Source: Pedobacter indicus (GTDB lineage Bacteria > Bacteroidota > Bacteroidia > Sphingobacteriales > Sphingobacteriaceae). Taken from it: a DNA stretch of 64,000 nt. The stretch is from NCBI RefSeq assembly GCF_003449035.1, contig NZ_QRGB01000001.1:2418001-2482000 (forward strand), read 5' to 3'. The position numbers and the translations under genes are program-made. Shown here in pieces: positions 38,115-64,000 of this stretch; position 1 is the first letter of the stretch; each line of letters starts with the position of its first letter. The notes under the pieces are model-generated. The model saw nothing but the letters and a program-made list of their open reading frames with translations, had not been told where the DNA came from and ran no database searches.

Positions 38115-40505
38115 TTACTTAAATCGGTCTAAAATTTTCAAACGCGGCTTAGAAGCTTCATATCCATAGCCATAGCCATATCCGTAACCACCATATCCAT
38201 AACCACCACCGTAACCATTACCTCCCAACTTTAGCCCGTTTAAAACTACCGCCAAATTAGAGAGTTTACCTTCCTTATAAACACGCTCAAGCTCTGGAAG
38301 CTGTCTGCGATCCATTTTTCCGACACGAACAACAAATAGCGTCAGATCAGCAATACGATCTACAATACTTGCATCTGCCACGATACCCATCGGCACCCCG
38401 TCTACAACCACATAGTCGTAGCGTTCCTTTAATTCGCGGAGCAGGTCGTCTAGTCGTTTGCTCAGAAGCAACTCAACCGGGTTTGGAGCCATTACACCAA
38501 TCGGAATTACATCCGTATTCGGCGCCAATTTACTCGTATGTACAATGTCGTCTATCGAGACATTTTGATCTGATAGAAAATGACTCGACCCTTTAGCTTG
38601 GGTTAAACCGACTCTGCCTGTCAGTGTACCTTTCCGAAGATCTAAATCTAGCACAGCCACCTTTTTGTCCAGATATGAAAGTGTAGATGCTAAATTCAAG
38701 ACACTAAAAGTTTTCCCGACACCTACGCTAAACGAAGTAAATACAATCACTTGTGGAGGAACTCCACTTTTCGCCATAAAGTTGATGTTGGTTCGTAAGA
38801 TACGGAAGGCTTCCGTTAAAGGATCTCTTCCCGATTTAGAAACCAACACATCACCCTCTTTCCCTTTTCTATTCTTCATAAATGGGATCTCTCCCAAAAA
38901 CGGTACGCTAGTCGCATTCTCGATATCTCTACGATCGCGAATACCCGTATCGAGCATAAGCTTCAGGAGTAAAATAACGGTCGGTAACATTAAACCGATC
39001 ACGACGCCGAGTGCCAATTTTCGAAAGCGACTTGGTGCAATGGGCGATGCAGAACCCGACGCGGGATCAATGATGGTCATATTATCTTCCGTCATTGCCT
39101 GATTAAGTGCGTTTTCTTCACGTTTATTCAGCAAGAACACATAGAGTTCCTCTTTCACTTTCTGCTGTCTTTCTATCGATAGCATCGTCCGTTGTTTCTG
39201 AGGAATTTGCATTACCTGCCCTCTCGCCTTTGCCTCCTCCTGACGAACGTTAGCCATTTTTATTTCTAGACCAGCAATCGCATTGTCTACCGCACGTTGT
39301 ATATTGCTGCGCATAGATGCCAATGTACCTTCCAAATCCTGTACAATTGGGTTTTCCGAAGTACCCCCTTCGGTTAAGCGATTCCTACGTAACAGTGTGT
39401 TGTTGTAGGAGCTTATCTGCGTTTCAATATTCGCATCAACCAAGCCCGTATTGTTTGGTATCAATTCGTTATTTTGCGAACCTTCCACCAAATAATCACG
39501 CATCATTTCTGCCAATTTCAAATCTGTTTCAATTGCACTACGTTCTGCTTGATATTGCCTGCTATCAGACAAATACATTTGACCCGCCGTTCCGATATCC
39601 ACTCCCTGGTTCCGAGTTTGCAAACGTTCGATATCGCCTTCTACAGACCCTAATTCCGATTCGATAATCGCCAAACGCTGATGGATAAAATCAGCAGTAT
39701 TTTCAGCAATCTGATTCTTCGTATCGACCGCGAACTCGTTGTAAACCGTAATTAGTGTCGTGATGATATCCGCCGCCCGTTTTGGTGATGAATCCTCTAT
39801 TGAAATTTCTAGCAAAGAAGCGTCACTCTCCATCTGAGAGATTTTCAGGCGACTTCCGAAATAAGCTGCCATCTGTTCTCTTGGAAATTTCTGAACATAA
39901 ATCTCCTTACCATACCAATCTTCCGAATAATAGGGATTAACCGTCAATATCATTTTCCCAACCGGCGTACTTATTGTATCACCCAACTTGGCCTTTATTT
40001 CCGTTGCGTCATCACCCTTCGAGAAGTTCGTCAGCAACACCGTTTCTTTGTCCTGAGGAATAGCAGTTAAGCTATAATAAACTTCCTCATGAATACCTTT
40101 TATCTGAATCCGGAAAGGAGCATCTTTATACAGCTCAACCGTCCGGAGACCCTCCTGAATAGAATAACTAACATCCGCACCTACGCGACTAACCGCGTTT
40201 CTCATCAACTCTTTTGATCGTAGCTGCAGGATTTCACTAGCCACATTAACCATATTATAGAGAGCGTTCGACCGGTTCACCCTAGCGGAAGTGGGTGTAT
40301 TTGCCGGGGTCTTAATCATCACGGTCTCCGTTTGCCGGTAAACGAAAGTCGACTTACTGTATTGATAATAATAGTATGAGCCAAATATCAATACCGACAA
40401 AACGAACCACTTCCAGTGATGAAGAAGATATTTGATAATATCGAGTATGTTAAGGGTCTTACTATGATCGTTAATGCCTGTGCCCGATCTATTTACTGTG
40501 CTCAT
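38115..40505 (-). CDS. wzc: Polysaccharide co-polymerase / tyrosine autokinase, Wzc type
   Basis: A 796-residue inner-membrane protein controlling chain length and export. Order: first membrane helix (about 34-51), Wzz domain, coiled coil in the periplasmic part (about 270-440), GNVR region, second helix (about 505-525), and a BY-kinase domain with Walker A ending GVGKT (Lys598), Walker A' VAVLDLDLRKG and Walker B YVVVDGVP. The tail (761-796) holds eight tyrosines in a Gly-Tyr repeat, the site of autophosphorylation that drives Wzc cycling. It lies 8 bp after wza and is the last gene of the operon. Confidence 0.94.
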   Translation of the reverse strand: MSTVNRSGTGINDHSKTLNILDIIKYLLHHWKWFVLSVLIFGSYYYYQYSKSTFVYRQTETVMIKTPANTPTSARVNRSNALYNMVNVASEILQLRSKELMRNAVSRVGADVSYSIQEGLRTVELYKDAPFRIQIKGIHEEVYYSLTAIPQDKETVLLTNFSKGDDATEIKAKLGDTISTPVGKMILTVNPYYSEDWYGKEIYVQKFPREQMAAYFGSRLKISQMESDASLLEISIEDSSPKRAADIITTLITVYNEFAVDTKNQIAENTADFIHQRLAIIESELGSVEGDIERLQTRNQGVDIGTAGQMYLSDSRQYQAERSAIETDLKLAEMMRDYLVEGSQNNELIPNNTGLVDANIETQISSYNNTLLRRNRLTEGGTSENPIVQDLEGTLASMRSNIQRAVDNAIAGLEIKMANVRQEEAKARGQVMQIPQKQRTMLSIERQQKVKEELYVFLLNKREENALNQAMTEDNMTIIDPASGSASPIAPSRFRKLALGVVIGLMLPTVILLLKLMLDTGIRDRRDIENATSVPFLGEIPFMKNRKGKEGDVLVSKSGRDPLTEAFRILRTNINFMAKSGVPPQVIVFTSFSVGVGKTFSVLNLASTLSYLDKKVAVLDLDLRKGTLTGRVGLTQAKGSSHFLSDQNVSIDDIVHTSKLAPNTDVIPIGVMAPNPVELLLSKRLDDLLRELKERYDYVVVDGVPMGIVADASIVDRIADLTLFVVRVGKMDRRQLPELERVYKEGKLSNLAVVLNGLKLGGNGYGGGYGYGGYGYGYGYGYEASKPRLKILDRFK

Positions 40506-40513
40506 AATGCAAG

Positions 40514-41302
40514 CTATTTAAATAAATTTATAACTGAAAAAATAAGTGTAACTGAACCAAGAACTGTCGTAAAATAGCGCCATGTTCTTTCTTCACGTAT
40601 ACTGCGTTCCGCTGCTTTTGGCTCTACATAGACAATATCATTCTGCTTTAGATAAAATGCAGGTGAATCAAAAAGATCGTTAGACTGGATATCGGTATAG
40701 ATCTTAATTCGCTCGCCGTTTTCCTCACGAATCACCGCTACACGATCCGCAGTCGCATTATTCGTTAAACCACCTGACCGAGCTAGTGCCTCTAGCAACG
40801 TAATCCGTGAATCAGGAACCGTTAGAACCCCCACACTTCCCACCTCTCCCATCATCACAATCTTCAGATTGATGAGTTCCGCCTTTACAATCGGTTCATC
40901 GATATAGCGCTCATCCTTTAACCTCTTTTGCAACATTTGTTTCAATTCCTCTACGGTCTTGTTTTCTACGTGAAGCGTTCCCAAAATCGGAAAAGAGATA
41001 TTACCATATTCATCTACCAAATAGCCATCCATGGCCGTTTGGCTTGTCGAACTGATATGGCCCGCTTCGTTCATAGAGTACGAGCCTACGCCCGCATTAA
41101 ACGGAATCGCCAGCTCCGGGTTCTTGGCGCTGATCTCAATTTTAATCCGATCATTCTTTTGAATTCGCAATGGCGGTAAATTAGCCACGCGGTATAACGT
41201 ATCCGACTTCATGTCTTCTACGTAGACTACTTTTTGTGAAGTGATGCATGAGCTCGTAAAAAGCAATACCAAAATGAGCATCCCCAAGGTAAATTTATTC
41301 AT
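40514..41302 (-). CDS. wza: Polysaccharide export outer membrane lipoprotein, Wza type
   Basis: Starting at the Met at 41302 gives 262 residues with lipobox FTSSC; the 14 upstream codons of the longer frame overlap the kinase gene and lack a signal. The Poly_export domain has LRIQKNDRIKIEI and GSYSMNEAG, then VDEYGNISFPILGTL, followed by an SLBB domain (MMGEVGSVGVLTVPDSRITLLEALARSGG region). A C-terminal hydrophobic helix (about 237-258) is the outer-membrane-spanning part or anchor. It forms the export channel with Wzc. The start overlaps the preceding gene by 8 bp. Confidence 0.93.
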   Translation of the reverse strand: MNKFTLGMLILVLLFTSSCITSQKVVYVEDMKSDTLYRVANLPPLRIQKNDRIKIEISAKNPELAIPFNAGVGSYSMNEAGHISSTSQTAMDGYLVDEYGNISFPILGTLHVENKTVEELKQMLQKRLKDERYIDEPIVKAELINLKIVMMGEVGSVGVLTVPDSRITLLEALARSGGLTNNATADRVAVIREENGERIKIYTDIQSNDLFDSPAFYLKQNDIVYVEPKAAERSIREERTWRYFTTVLGSVTLIFSVINLFK

Positions 41303-42260
41303 AATGTTGTGTTTTAGCTTCTGTGTATAAAGTATTTGTCTCATTTAATTTCTTGTTACATAAATATGCAGCTTCCCTATTTGGCAAGCAATCCAAATAA
41401 GCTACCCGTACGTTGCCTATTAACCTTTCAGCAACATCCACCATCTTGGAGTAAAGATTCCGATCCCAACGAATCGACGAGCAACTCGGTAAGATCGCAA
41501 GCAATGCGCTCTTACCGTCAATATCCGTCCATACGTTATGTTTCGCTTGCCGCAACCGCACCAAGCCTTTCAGCTCCACACGCAAATTCCGATAGCAAGC
41601 TGTTTTTCCGCTCCATGGAGAACCATAGATCCATATTTTACCATCTTCGTCAATACGTACAATTGGGTTATCATCGTTCAGTAATTGTGTACCTTCTATA
41701 GATTGCAACCATAAGCGACTGTGCGTACTTTTCCCCGTACCGCTCTTACCTAAGAAAGCAAACCCCTCTTGTTGTCTATAAACAACCGAGGCATGTATCA
41801 CCATCATTTTGTAGGGTAGCACCGCCTGCGCATATACCACCATCAATAACCAAGATAGTACTGAGCCAGCTTCCAAACGCGGCTCTTCGAAATAAATTAT
41901 CGATTTCCTAAAATCCTTCGCACTGTGCATTTCACAAGTACTATCCCTACCTTCATATCGTACAGATGTGATATAAGTTTGGTTAGACTCTTCGAACCGA
42001 AATCGGTCGCCCCATTGCTGGGAGATGTCACTCAGCAATTGCCGGTCACCCTGCTTTTGTTCGGGTGCAGTCGTCCGTATTTCAACCTCAATACGATCCT
42101 CCGCATTCGATGGTACATCGACCATGAAATTCATAAATGAAGGTAAATAGCGCTCAAGTTCTAATGATACTGGGGCATATACCCCTATAAGATGATCCGC
42201 AATCTTGTAGTAACTCACGTCTAATTTCCTTTTATCTTGCTCAACTTCTTTCATAGGCAA
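41295..42260 (-). CDS. HPr-kinase-like serine kinase (lasso-peptide kinase type)
   Basis: A 321-residue protein with an N-terminal uncharacterised domain (1-150) and an HprK-fold kinase domain. The P-loop is GKSGTGKST (171-179), then NDD at 195-197 and SPWSGKT (214-220). This set (GKSTH..LW, NDD, G-x-PWSGKT) matches the kinases that phosphorylate lasso peptides, such as PadeK of the paeninodin cluster, rather than true HprK/P, which has a different capping domain. A precursor substrate is not encoded nearby. It lies directly beside the ABC exporter (stop and start adjacent), and wza overlaps it. Confidence 0.85.
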   Translation of the reverse strand: MPMKEVEQDKRKLDVSYYKIADHLIGVYAPVSLELERYLPSFMNFMVDVPSNAEDRIEVEIRTTAPEQKQGDRQLLSDISQQWGDRFRFEESNQTYITSVRYEGRDSTCEMHSAKDFRKSIIYFEEPRLEAGSVLSWLLMVVYAQAVLPYKMMVIHASVVYRQQEGFAFLGKSGTGKSTHSRLWLQSIEGTQLLNDDNPIVRIDEDGKIWIYGSPWSGKTACYRNLRVELKGLVRLRQAKHNVWTDIDGKSALLAILPSCSSIRWDRNLYSKMVDVAERLIGNVRVAYLDCLPNREAAYLCNKKLNETNTLYTEAKTQHYE

Positions 42261-43886
42261 TCATTTGATATAAATTACTTCATCACAATTATTTGCAAGA
42301 GCCATATCATGTGTTGCAAAAATCAGGATTTTATCGTCTCCTGCTTCCAGTAAGCGATCCATTAGCAAATCTGACGTCTTTTCGTCCAATGCCGATGTCA
42401 CTTCGTCAAAGATCCAAATACTACAATCATTGAGCAGAGCCCTGGCAATCGCAATACGCTGTGCCTGACCTTCCGAAAGACCGTAACCGGATTCACCAAT
42501 GTAGGTATCCAGACCATTAGGTAGGCCATAAACAAACTCCGCACAAGCGATGTATAATACACGTTTTATATCATCCATCGTTGGCGCAACCTCACCAATC
42601 GCTAGATTTTCTCTTATCGTACCTGTGAAAAGCTTATCACCCTGTGGCACATAAGCCATATTAGCCCGATGCTTCTTTTTCAGCGAAATCAACCTCTGAT
42701 CTGCATGAATGTCAATCTGCCCACTATCCGGATCCAACAAGGCCAGCAACAACCGAATAAAGGTTGTCTTCCCTTTACCACTTGCACCTAGTAACGCGGT
42801 TGGTTTGCCCACCCGCATCACGGCATGCAAGTTATCAATCACCAAACGATCTTCATATCCAAAGGTCAGTCCGGCAACACGGATGGCTTTAGGCGTTGAA
42901 ATGATTTCAGCTTCCTCTTCTTCTTCGATATCCACATTCATCAACTCTTGAACCCGCTGAACCGAAGTTCTAAATCGGATAAACAAAGGAACGAAAGCCA
43001 TCATCCCCAACATAGGCGCCTGAACCCTACCTACCAATTGAAGGAAAGCCGTCATCGTCCCGAATGATATTTCATTCGTATAAAGCCGATATACACCCCA
43101 AACAAAAGTCAACAGAAATCCTGCATTCATGACAAGCTTCACCATCCCTTGCGAAAGTGTCGAGAAATTAAGCAGTCGCTTCTTTAACCTGACAAGTTGC
43201 TCCTGACTACCCTTCGTTTTTGCCCAACGAGTCCTGTGCATACCCAGCACTCGTATAGACAATCGGAACCGTAAATTTTCCTGTAATACATTACCAAACA
43301 CGCTTTCAGCTTCTTTTGTATCCGTGTTTAACTTTCTTAACTTTTTAAAATATACTTTTGAAAAAATCAATAAAGGTGAAATAGCCAAGATCAGGAGAGC
43401 CAACATCGGATCCATTGACCACAGAAAACCAAAAGAAGCAAGCAGTCGGATGGTTGTCAGCATAAACGACAGCCAAGAATAGCCTATCATATACACAATT
43501 TCCTTGCAGTCTGAATGGATTCGCACCTGAATATCGCCGCTATGCAGCTGTTTCACAACTTTCCAGCTCGCCATCATCTGATTGCGGGTAACCGAGTTCT
43601 GTAAATCGCTCAGCATGGCGATACGTGTCCGCTCGTTCAACCACCTGGAAAATATACGTCCGAACATGGCAAGCAATAGACATACGGCGGAAAGGATCAA
43701 CGCTTCTTTCAATGCGGAGCTGTCCTTAGCTATCGCAAAGTCCACAGCCTGCTTCGACCAGTAGACAAAAGCAAGCGATAAAAAGATAGCAGCAAGCTCG
43801 ATAATAAAGTACCAGAACAGCTCACTACGATACCCTTTGGTTAACGACCAGGCCCATCTCATCTGATATGTCAATCCTGTATTCAT
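42261..43886 (-). CDS. ABC exporter, fused permease and ATPase, without peptidase domain
   Basis: A 541-residue half-transporter. Five or six membrane helices occupy residues 22-300. The nucleotide-binding domain has Walker A GASGKGKTT (367-375), Q-loop Gln415, signature LSEGQ (470-474) and Walker B IWIFDE (490-495). It has no C39 leader peptidase domain, unlike bacteriocin exporters, but resembles the exporters of lasso and other RiPP clusters. Its position between kinase and nucleotidyltransferase suggests it exports their product; the substrate is unknown. Spacing to both neighbours is 0-1 bp. Confidence 0.9.
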   Translation of the reverse strand: MNTGLTYQMRWAWSLTKGYRSELFWYFIIELAAIFLSLAFVYWSKQAVDFAIAKDSSALKEALILSAVCLLLAMFGRIFSRWLNERTRIAMLSDLQNSVTRNQMMASWKVVKQLHSGDIQVRIHSDCKEIVYMIGYSWLSFMLTTIRLLASFGFLWSMDPMLALLILAISPLLIFSKVYFKKLRKLNTDTKEAESVFGNVLQENLRFRLSIRVLGMHRTRWAKTKGSQEQLVRLKKRLLNFSTLSQGMVKLVMNAGFLLTFVWGVYRLYTNEISFGTMTAFLQLVGRVQAPMLGMMAFVPLFIRFRTSVQRVQELMNVDIEEEEEAEIISTPKAIRVAGLTFGYEDRLVIDNLHAVMRVGKPTALLGASGKGKTTFIRLLLALLDPDSGQIDIHADQRLISLKKKHRANMAYVPQGDKLFTGTIRENLAIGEVAPTMDDIKRVLYIACAEFVYGLPNGLDTYIGESGYGLSEGQAQRIAIARALLNDCSIWIFDEVTSALDEKTSDLLMDRLLEAGDDKILIFATHDMALANNCDEVIYIK

Positions 43887-43887
43887 C

Positions 43888-44961
43888 CTAACTAATCAAT
43901 CTCGAGTAAAAATGTACCAGTGGAAAGCTGAGCACTTCCATTGGTGCGTAGCGAAAATACCGTTTCGCATTCCACCATAACTTCTTTCTATCTCGTCCGG
44001 AGCCTGATGAGCTGTCCTCATTATGAAACCCAAAATTACCACCCTCCAGAATATCCGTCATCACCCAATCGGCTGATACATGCTCCTTGCTTTCAAAAGG
44101 CAAATATACAGTCGGAAGACCTATGTATCGTACCAGCAGCTCATGGAGCAAATGCACCCATTTCTCAATGTAAACTTTCCTGTAAATCCGCTTTAATGCT
44201 AAACCATCCACCTCATCATGATAGGTAAAGTAAAGTCTCGCCACATCACAAAGTTGCCTTAAACCGACACCAAAGGATAAAAGATGTTTAAGGATATGCG
44301 TACTCACCTGCACACACTGCATCATTGGAGAAGGCACTAGAGCTTCGGTATCTCCGATAACTACGCGCATACACTCAGCCTTCTCAAACTCTTCCATACG
44401 ACGGAGAGCAGCCTGGCAAAAGGGATTATACAAATCAAACAAGCGTTGATGATGCTCCACTTCACATCCATTCCATTTATAGGAACAACTAAAGCCTGCT
44501 GTACTATTCACTTCAATGCCTTTACTTCCAATCAGTTCATTAGCCCGACGGTAAGCTACCCTTGAACCAAAATACCAATCAATATCCCCGCAAAGTCGCC
44601 TTTCTGGTCGCACATAGCAAACAGCTAAACCCTGCCCTTTTACCAACATCGGATCAAGCCCTACCTCCTTTAAAAACCTGGCCTGTTCAGCCACCAGTCT
44701 ATCCATCCATGTATTCCGCTGTGCAATCTTCTCTACCCGGACCAGCCATTTAACCAGCAATGCTTTCTTCGGTAAAAGACCAGAATCCAGTCGCTGAACC
44801 CCGTCAAAAACCAAAGCCTCCACAGTCTGTTTAATGGCAAGGTCATACAAATCATCCCACCCCTTATCGTCCAGAGGGAAGCAATCCACCCGATCAATTG
44901 GCGTATCCCAAAGACCTGATCGCAAAAGCGTGAAAAATGCATGTGTAACCTTCGTGTTCAT
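43888..44961 (-). CDS. Nucleotidyltransferase family protein, NTP_transf_5
   Basis: A 357-residue protein of the NTP_transf_5 type. Signature blocks are VKGQGLA (107-113) and CGDIDWYF (124-131), the active site with two metal-binding Asp residues of the GxD-x-D kind, followed by EVHHQR-like EVEHHQRLF. In lasso-peptide clusters such as paeninodin, PadeN-like homologues act after the HprK-like kinase. Here it neighbours kinase, ABC exporter and PqqD genes, strengthening that reading, although no peptide is seen. It might instead modify a sugar or polymer. It starts 4 bp after pqqD-like gene ends. Confidence 0.82.
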   Translation of the reverse strand: MNTKVTHAFFTLLRSGLWDTPIDRVDCFPLDDKGWDDLYDLAIKQTVEALVFDGVQRLDSGLLPKKALLVKWLVRVEKIAQRNTWMDRLVAEQARFLKEVGLDPMLVKGQGLAVCYVRPERRLCGDIDWYFGSRVAYRRANELIGSKGIEVNSTAGFSCSYKWNGCEVEHHQRLFDLYNPFCQAALRRMEEFEKAECMRVVIGDTEALVPSPMMQCVQVSTHILKHLLSFGVGLRQLCDVARLYFTYHDEVDGLALKRIYRKVYIEKWVHLLHELLVRYIGLPTVYLPFESKEHVSADWVMTDILEGGNFGFHNEDSSSGSGRDRKKLWWNAKRYFRYAPMEVLSFPLVHFYSRLIS

Positions 44962-44965
44962 TCCT

Positions 44966-45238
44966 TTAGTTTCCTGCCAGTAAACCTTGTTTCTTAAAAT
45001 CGGTCAATAACTGCTTTGTATCCTTCTCTGCGAGTTCAATATCTACATCATAATTTTCCATCAGAAGCTTCACAATATCCGCTTCTGAAAAATCTTTGCC
45101 GTGCAGCTCATTCCATAAAAATGCCGCAGTTTCATTTAGCGTATATACCTTGGACATATCCACCATTTCCTGACCCGGATCAACAATCACATGATCATCC
45201 CCCAAATGTCTTAGCATCAAATCATCTCTCAATCTCAT
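44966..45238 (-). CDS. PqqD family peptide-binding protein (RRE domain)
   Basis: A 90-residue stand-alone PqqD/RRE domain, the winged-helix module that binds leader peptides of RiPP precursors. Typical blocks are DDLMLRHLGDDHVIVDP, YTLNETAAFLWNEL (residues 33-46) and LLTDFKKQGLL (residues 77-87). It overlaps the S24/S26 peptidase gene by 4 bp and is followed by the nucleotidyltransferase after 4 bp. In a lasso cluster it would be protein B1, but the partner protease B2 and the cyclase C are not in the locus. Confidence 0.88.
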   Translation of the reverse strand: MRLRDDLMLRHLGDDHVIVDPGQEMVDMSKVYTLNETAAFLWNELHGKDFSEADIVKLLMENYDVDIELAEKDTKQLLTDFKKQGLLAGN

Positions 45239-45699
45239 CTCTTTAAATTTAATTTATTAATCAAACCACCCCATACCCGCAGTAAGGGCTTAAATTTGTA
45301 TCTCAACCATGCTCTTTGCATGCTACCAGTCGAGTAAATCCTCAATAGCTCCGTTCCTCTATAAGCTTCCGTCACCATGCCGATGACTGCATCACGTTCC
45401 ACACGTTCTATTTGAACCCAATTATTGTCGCCTGCCAACTCTAGGATATCCCCTTTACGTCCAACCAGTCGGTGAAGGATATACCCTCCTCGATAAAGCG
45501 CCAAAACAATTGTTCCCCATTTCATTTCACGCATATCCGTAGTATTCAACAGCACATGATCCCCCTCCTTTAAAGACGGTAACATACTCGTACCCTTTAC
45601 TGGGATCTTTACCACTTTTCCTTCTGCAAGTAATGATTCCACCCGTTCAAAATACGAGTCGTTCGTTATCTTCTTTCTGGCCGCCATACGCTCATTCAC
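45235..45699 (-). CDS. S24/S26 family peptidase, SipW-like
   Basis: Encodes 154 residues with the signal-peptidase fold. The nucleophile is Ser38 in KGTSMLPSL. The residue normally Lys in SPase I is His76 in YILHRLV, the Ser-His type of SipW and archaeal or eukaryotic enzymes. There is no obvious membrane helix, unlike SPase I; a LexA-like or soluble leader-cutting role is possible. It starts the five-gene cassette with PqqD, nucleotidyltransferase, ABC exporter and kinase and could process its substrate. The preceding glycosyltransferase ends 4 bp before it. Confidence 0.85.
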   Translation of the reverse strand: MNERMAARKKITNDSYFERVESLLAEGKVVKIPVKGTSMLPSLKEGDHVLLNTTDMREMKWGTIVLALYRGGYILHRLVGRKGDILELAGDNNWVQIERVERDAVIGMVTEAYRGTELLRIYSTGSMQRAWLRYKFKPLLRVWGGLINKLNLKR

Positions 45700-63330: not shown

Positions 63331-64000
63331 TTACAGTGGGCATGGTACTATTTGTTTTCCAGCTCCGCTACCGGTCATGGTTGTTTCTCCTGTAACCAAT
63401 TGGGTTACAATAACCTCATTGGCTGCGTCAGCATTCCAAGGCACGTTGTTAAATGAAAAGCCGCCAGTAAGTTCCAACGGGTATAGATCGCCTCCGCTTG
63501 TCTTACTACCATACATCGATATTTCACCTTCTGGACTGATTACCACGCGGATCATCGGTTTAGCTGCGGTACCAGTGATATTATAGATCTCGTCAATGTC
63601 AACAGCGTATTGAGTACCATCAGCAAACCGGATATTTTTAGGAGAGTTTTCAATATCTCCACCCTGAAACTGAACCTGTCGATGCAATATTGAATTGGAA
63701 TGCGTAATCAGATCGACCCCATTAATTGTCATACCAAAGGAATTATCAAGAATGGTTAGGTCGAATACGAATCCGAAATCAGCATTAGGAGCTGTAATAT
63801 TATGTTCAATTAAACTGCCATCTGGTCTTTGCCCATTTGTGTACTTCCAGTTAAAAATTTGCTCTTCTTCAACGCCTACAACCTCTGTACAAGGGATAAA
63901 GAAGTCAAGATTGAGGTTGTACCGAACACCTGGTGTAATCTTTATATCGTCCAATACGAGATCTCTCGTCATTCCATCGGCAGTAATTGAGTTAAGGATA
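63331..64000 (-). CDS. Hypothetical protein, 5' end beyond the window
   Basis: At least 223 codons are open from the right edge to the stop at 63331. The sequence is rich in beta strands and small polar residues (DLVLDDIKITPGVRYNLNLD, ITAPNADFGFVFDLTI), like a large surface or fimbrillin/adhesin-type protein. It ends QIVPCPL. The start and signal peptide are outside the window. It reads into the polysaccharide locus with 44 bp spacing, so it could be co-transcribed. No family is named. Confidence 0.6.
   Translation of the reverse strand, partial: ILNSITADGMTRDLVLDDIKITPGVRYNLNLDFFIPCTEVVGVEEEQIFNWKYTNGQRPDGSLIEHNITAPNADFGFVFDLTILDNSFGMTINGVDLITHSNSILHRQVQFQGGDIENSPKNIRFADGTQYAVDIDEIYNITGTAAKPMIRVVISPEGEISMYGSKTSGGDLYPLELTGGFSFNNVPWNADAANEVIVTQLVTGETTMTGSGAGKQIVPCPL

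Follow-up and report, generated by a model that had tools for sequence, protein, structure and literature searches.

A phosphorylating-peptide gene cassette in a capsule operon of Pedobacter indicus as a probable Bacteroidota variant of the linear polyphosphorylated peptide machinery

The window analysed here, a stretch of 64,000 nucleotides from the genome of Pedobacter indicus, contains at positions 41295-45699 five contiguous minus-strand open reading frames (ORFs) with spacings of -4 to +4 bp (Table 1). The PqqD ORF overlaps the peptidase ORF by 4 bp, and the end of the kinase ORF overlaps the wza ORF; glycosyltransferase genes precede the cassette and wza-wzc follow it directly. A first-pass annotation, made from the letters alone, had described these five genes and both flanks, and all of them are present where it placed them, spaced by no more than 4 bp. 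Pfam matches agree with its naming of the peptidase, the PqqD protein, the NTP_transf_5 enzyme and the ABC exporter, in which Pfam detects no C39 domain. The genome carries one copy each of NTP_transf_5 and PqqD, and the best-matching named relatives of the kinase are Sphingobacterium species.

Table 1. Cassette genes, conserved neighbours and precursor region (positions in the window; numbers above 64000 continue past its edge).
Feature	Position	Strand	Evidence
S26/S24-like (SipW/SEC11-type Ser-His) soluble peptidase, predicted leader peptidase, LppS-like	45235-45699	-	Peptidase_S24 4.2e-8
Stand-alone PqqD / RiPP recognition element (RRE), LppB/B1-like	44966-45238	-	PF05402 1.2e-18
NTP_transf_5 nucleotidyltransferase, LppN/PsmN-like	43888-44961	-	PF14907 2.1e-36
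C39-less MsbA/T1SS-type ABC exporter, LppD-like	42261-43886	-	PF00664 1.5e-23 + PF00005 3.4e-25
HprK/PEPCK-fold peptide kinase, LppK-like, predicted	41295-42260	-	AlphaFold2 fold, invariant motifs
wza-like polysaccharide export protein, conserved downstream neighbour	40514-41344	-	PF02563, recurrent order
wzc-like tyrosine autokinase / chain-length protein, conserved downstream neighbour	38115-40505	-	domain matches, recurrent order
Precursor, 66 aa	65003-65203 (G000:C1:2483003-2483203; L180:5004-5204)	-	profile match
Fimbrillin-like lipoprotein gene after precursor, 3' part	63331-64000, runs on to 64302	-	PF13149 2.5e-6
OmpA-family gene, outside window	65250-66458		OmpA 8.4e-13
Intact lipoprotein paralogue, one ORF, outside window	66494-68188 (L180:6495-8189)

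The kinase has no Pfam kinase match and scores far under the cut-off of the NCBIfam model HprK_rel_A (1.1e-4), but its AlphaFold2 model (pLDDT 90.5) adopts a P-loop fold of the PEPCK/HprK type. The model aligns with PEPCK (Foldseek 1.7e-6; VIA-align Z 15.7, rmsd 4.9 over 255 residues); among the structural matches listed by the two programs PEPCK is present and HprK is not, the latter being matched weakly and by sequence only (1ko7, E 0.23). His156, SGTGKST at 173-179, NDD at 195-197 and PWSGKT at 215-220 are invariant, the last two being the blocks to which the first-pass annotation had drawn attention. The catalytic motif H...GxxGxGKS...DD of BsfK serves as reference for HprK/PEPCK-fold kinases (PMC10368454), and its counterparts here are His156, G171/G174/G176, K177, S178 and D196-D197; fold and motif are both present in this protein. 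In the peptidase, Ser38 and His76 are invariant (33/33 relatives), no N-terminal transmembrane helix is apparent and the profile matches SEC11C at 4e-5. The only invariant column of the PqqD protein is Asp73 (41/41 sequences), with Asn35 kept in more than 90%; by a manual offset rather than a shared structure alignment, these two fall on Asp70 and Asn33 of LppB, which contact the leader Tyr and lie at the Pro kink, respectively (PMC13381572). In a profile search of the PDB, the PqqD protein matches TfuB1 at 4e-8 and LppB (9x8z) at 0.35.

A precursor gene had been reported as missing, and the RRE had been proposed to recruit a leader encoded elsewhere. A profile search finds no precursor inside the window; its apparent absence is a window-edge effect, as a 66-aa precursor gene lies about 1 kb past the edge. 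As proposed, the leader is encoded by a separate gene, but this gene belongs to the run that holds the cassette and lies about 20 kb upstream of it. The leader reads YLSPDIQVINLELEHSIA, followed by A-G-Ser. Its gene has an OmpA-family gene on one side and a fimbrillin-like lipoprotein gene on the other, and is continuous with the capsule genes. This lipoprotein gene is split, with a second ORF at 64299-65009 (L180:3332-5010 overall) and an ATGA overlap near an A/T run, which may reflect a frameshift, an assembly error or a true split.

The precursor profile was seeded with a small ORF beside one cassette (L162) and grown with short peptides near many cassettes, often encoded directly after wzc. 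Built from an alignment without the window precursor, it gives a single match in the window genome (E 3.7e-7). A run over the 12,303 small ORFs in the fetched loci yields 20 matches in 19 of 80 cassette loci and none in five shuffles, and in 43 comparison loci matches occur only in two, both of which themselves hold cassette genes; of 31 loci that carry wzc, 14 lack a precursor within the fetched stretch. None of the Pfam and NCBIfam models matched the precursor peptides tested. The collected set comprises 49 precursors, all with Tyr at position 0, Glu at +13 and Ser at +20, and likewise Pro at +3, YxxP being the rule for inclusion; one further match, with a truncated start and without YxxP, was left outside. 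Ile at +16 (44/49) and Ala at +17 (43/49) are nearly as constant, giving a Bacteroidota leader consensus of YxxPx[IV]xxxx[IV]E[LM]Ex[GS]IAx[GS]S. Lasso- and PqqD-type RREs recognise the motif YxxP (PMC12710340, PMC10368454). The small-residue (-3,-1) rule of signal peptidases fits four registers, in 39-46 of the 49 precursors, and for this reason the cut site is not fixed. The cores are of similar length and share an acidic -EEW/EDW- pattern. Related short peptides of the form YxxP...NEGV(M/L)xxS, with Ser 19 after Tyr, are encoded near arrangement-B cassettes (described below; L143:4493-4768 and L118:3333-3476) and possibly belong to a broader Bacteroidales precursor family.

A scan of genome contigs with a kinase profile gave 549 confirmed relatives, of which the best 80 loci were read. 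Among these, nine named Sphingobacterium loci share the order S26-PqqD-NT-ABC-HprK-wza-wzc with one Bacteroidales MAG (L112), and a further locus (L113) has the order of L112 with no S26 gene detected. In Bacteroides, Phocaeicola, Alistipes and others the recurrent order is PqqD-NT-HprK-wza-wzc. In arrangement B, found in Prevotella and others, the order is HprK-S26-PqqD-(NT)-ABC without adjacent wza-wzc. The expected conservation of the cassette is seen in many polysaccharide loci among the best 80 of the 549, and its co-occurrence with wza-wzc is frequent but not constant. A phylogenetic tree unites the cassette kinases in a single group (100/97), places this group beside kinases of S26-associated radical-SAM loci and separates it from lasso kinases (98/90); some of the branches are long. 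A search with the kinase gave no match in viral sequences, and plasmid searches gave only distant ones from Prevotella, Segatella, Phocaeicola and Butyrivibrio; a 300-genome draw from the phylum contained no positives besides the window genome and one Sphingobacterium sp. (G002). In the latter, a fragment of a second kinase beside a short wzc piece (L057:16545-16991) is apparently a decaying extra cassette. As separate observations, three loci (L046:11156-15606, L047:5656-9766, L072:1192-6643) combine PqqD, HprK-like, S26-like and radical-SAM genes (with SPASM in L047) with small ORFs rich in Gly/Cys, such as L072:4074-4355, and apparently represent another S26-using RiPP type. Near polysaccharide genes of the Butyrivibrio fibrisolvens plasmid pNP243 (L257:9611-11634) lie genes for an HprK-like kinase, PqqD and an S24/S26 peptidase and a 57-aa YxxP ORF; this plasmid was dropped as an outgroup for linear polyphosphorylated peptides because the short ORF is Cys-rich and the kinase has no NDD.

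Across 151 Sphingobacteriaceae genomes the kinase was found in 16, and precursors in those 16 and in one more (G340), a distribution confounded by genus. A genome of the window's own genus (G309) has neither kinase nor precursor, and no PqqD or kinase was detected in G309 or G340. The latter nevertheless has seven precursor matches (e.g. C11:284766-284918), which may be explained by loss of the machinery, an assembly gap or a different machinery. Apart from the window genome and G340, the positive genomes, Sphingobacterium among them, carry 4-16 dispersed precursors and one to three PqqD genes. Of the 49 precursors, 47 lie directly upstream of a large ORF, exceeding 450 aa in 46 of these 47 cases, whose product is typically a predicted lipoprotein. 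These paired lipoproteins measure about 520-800 aa and resemble fimbrillin-like or FISUMP proteins where recognisable; among 36 aligned, Mfa_like_1 (PF13149) and Fib_succ_major (PF09603) each match five, most of the set having no Pfam match, and an AlphaFold2 model of one reaches a pLDDT of 41 (8 sequences). No link of Mfa_like_1 or FISUMP proteins to a RiPP-like peptide was found in the literature searched.

Precursor and lipoprotein vary together, and they do so through the core. The correlation of sequence distances (r) is 0.71 between core and lipoprotein (permutation p 2e-4), against 0.19 between leader and lipoprotein and 0.07 between core and leader. After thinning to 42, 30 and 23 pairs the core-lipoprotein value is 0.64, 0.50 and 0.39 (p 5e-4), and the leader-lipoprotein correlation is no longer significant. 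The core correlates more with the N-terminal than with the C-terminal half of the lipoprotein, a pattern compatible with contact in that half as well as with linked recombination.

The first-pass annotation considered the set an undescribed system, which it is not, since the same five genes have been published as the linear polyphosphorylated peptide (LPP) clusters (lppA-K-B-S-D-N of Paenibacillus alginolyticus; Nat Commun 2026, PMC13381572). In LPP, the RRE binds YxxP, the kinase polyphosphorylates core Ser3, a SipW-like peptidase removes the leader in an RRE-dependent manner and an ABC pump exports the product; the NTP transferase LppN has no detectable activity, and the role of the peptide is stated as unknown (PMC13381572). 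The window cassette has all five conserved gene types (signal-peptidase-I-like peptidase, discrete RRE, HprK-like kinase, NTP transferase and MsbA-like pump), no cyclase, and a YxxP precursor in the same gene run; a Ser shortly after the leader and a setting in capsule loci are also common to both. The differences lie in the leader, where the LPP consensus YxxPxVLxHQxIxFETxxS stands against ...IELExGIAxGS and Ser follows the Tyr by 18 residues against 20; in the hosts, LPP being reported from Bacillota only (PMC13381572) and the cassette from Bacteroidota (Sphingobacterium, Bacteroidales); in the trans dispersal of the precursors and their pairing with large lipoproteins; and in the wza-wzc linkage. 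As the full leader consensus and the restriction to Bacillota do not extend to it, and as the PDB profile search gave its RRE no clear place in the LPP clade, the cassette is best regarded as a variant of LPP and not a member, and the view that it is a Bacteroidota form of this RiPP machinery, working by a homologous mechanism, is held with good though not full confidence. HPr-rel-A systems (NCBIfam TIGR04352 kinase, TIGR04353 PqqD) also pair an HprK-related kinase with a PqqD-family protein, but the cassette scores under their curated cut-offs (21.5 of 200; 21.7 of 35).

Gene set, precursor, motifs, co-occurrence, pairing and covariation are established at the level of sequence, and the chemistry is modelled on that of LPP and lasso enzymes. 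By this homology, the 66-aa precursor, whose gene heads the gene run, would be bound through its YxxP leader by the PqqD protein and handed to the HprK-fold kinase. The kinase is predicted to phosphorylate, possibly several times, the invariant Ser at +20 from the leader Tyr, which is core Ser3 when numbered as in LPP. Leader removal near G/S-I-A|x-G-Ser would then fall to the cytosolic Ser-His S26 peptidase, the NTP_transf_5 enzyme might, more speculatively, place a sugar or a nucleotide on the phosphate as a cap, and the ABC pump would export a linear acidic core. Outside the cell the core is suggested to act with the lipoprotein encoded beside its precursor, in a manner about which one can only speculate. 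A broader proposal, to which somewhat less than even odds are given, is that a RiPP-type peptide may be a dedicated partner of a surface lipoprotein (a ligand, a donor-strand-like element or a co-subunit), each core being matched to its adjacent lipoprotein, and that one central phosphorylating machinery, often placed in a capsule operon, would mature all such peptides of a cell. A surface role of this kind for a RiPP was not found in the literature searched.

Other uses of the peptide are conceivable. It could form a glycopeptide link for the capsule, in which NTP_transf_5 adds a sugar to phospho-Ser and the exported peptide carries a chain, either built up on it or joined to it; PsmN adds one to two hexoses to a lasso phosphate (PMC8498205) and many cassettes sit in wza-wzc capsule operons, but arrangement B has no adjacent wza-wzc, the precursors are scattered through the genome and pair with lipoproteins, and no ligase-type gene was identified, which makes such a link improbable. 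Nothing was found in favour of the related suggestion that the five genes serve to modify the polysaccharide itself. An equally small chance is given to the exported peptides being bacteriocin-like toxins, with the adjacent lipoproteins conferring self-immunity. RRE, leader and exporter are present, peptide/lipoprotein pair numbers vary, and core-lipoprotein covariation would fit toxin-immunity pairs too. The shared acidic pattern and similar length of the cores speak against it, as do the lipoproteins, since such large fimbrillin-like or FISUMP proteins would be unusual as immunity proteins.

The lasso-peptide parts called missing by the first-pass annotation are indeed absent, apart from the precursor: no Transglut_core3 (B2, PF13471) match exists in the window genome, and its only Asn_synthase ORF (573 aa, about 290 kb outside the window) is, judged by sequence, an ordinary asnB-like gene and no lasso cyclase. 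A full lasso core was sought elsewhere in the genome and none was found, in keeping with the earlier non-lasso reading. NTP_transf_5 occurs in 44 of 296 sampled genomes of the phylum, many of which have B2 and/or Asn_synthase close by, and the window set therefore stands apart. Phosphorylated and phosphoglycosylated lasso peptides (paeninodin, BsfA, pseudomycoidin) share with the cassette a B1-type RRE, a YxxP-type leader, an HprK-like kinase (H-G-G-G-K-S-DD), an NTP transferase and an ABC exporter; unlike them it lacks B2, cyclase and lasso core, and its leader is predicted to be cut by a Ser-His signal-peptidase-like enzyme. A degenerate lasso cluster that has lost B2, cyclase and precursor, which the common genes and the many lasso-adjoining NTP_transf_5 loci might suggest, is hardly credible and was rejected as already contradicted, given a kinase clade separate from lasso kinases (100/97, with long-branch caveats), an intact cassette conserved in many genera, a dedicated S26 peptidase and a precursor family of its own.

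Read as a probable LPP variant, the cassette brings LPP-type machinery to the Bacteroidota, including relatives of Bacteroides, Phocaeicola, Prevotella and Alistipes, and the precursor profile may be used for genome mining. Beyond what LPP has shown, precursors occur in every kinase-bearing genome of the 151 Sphingobacteriaceae, they are reused in trans, most have a lipoprotein gene as neighbour, and the core, not the leader, covaries with that lipoprotein. The tie to the lipoprotein would offer a direct and testable candidate role for this peptide family.
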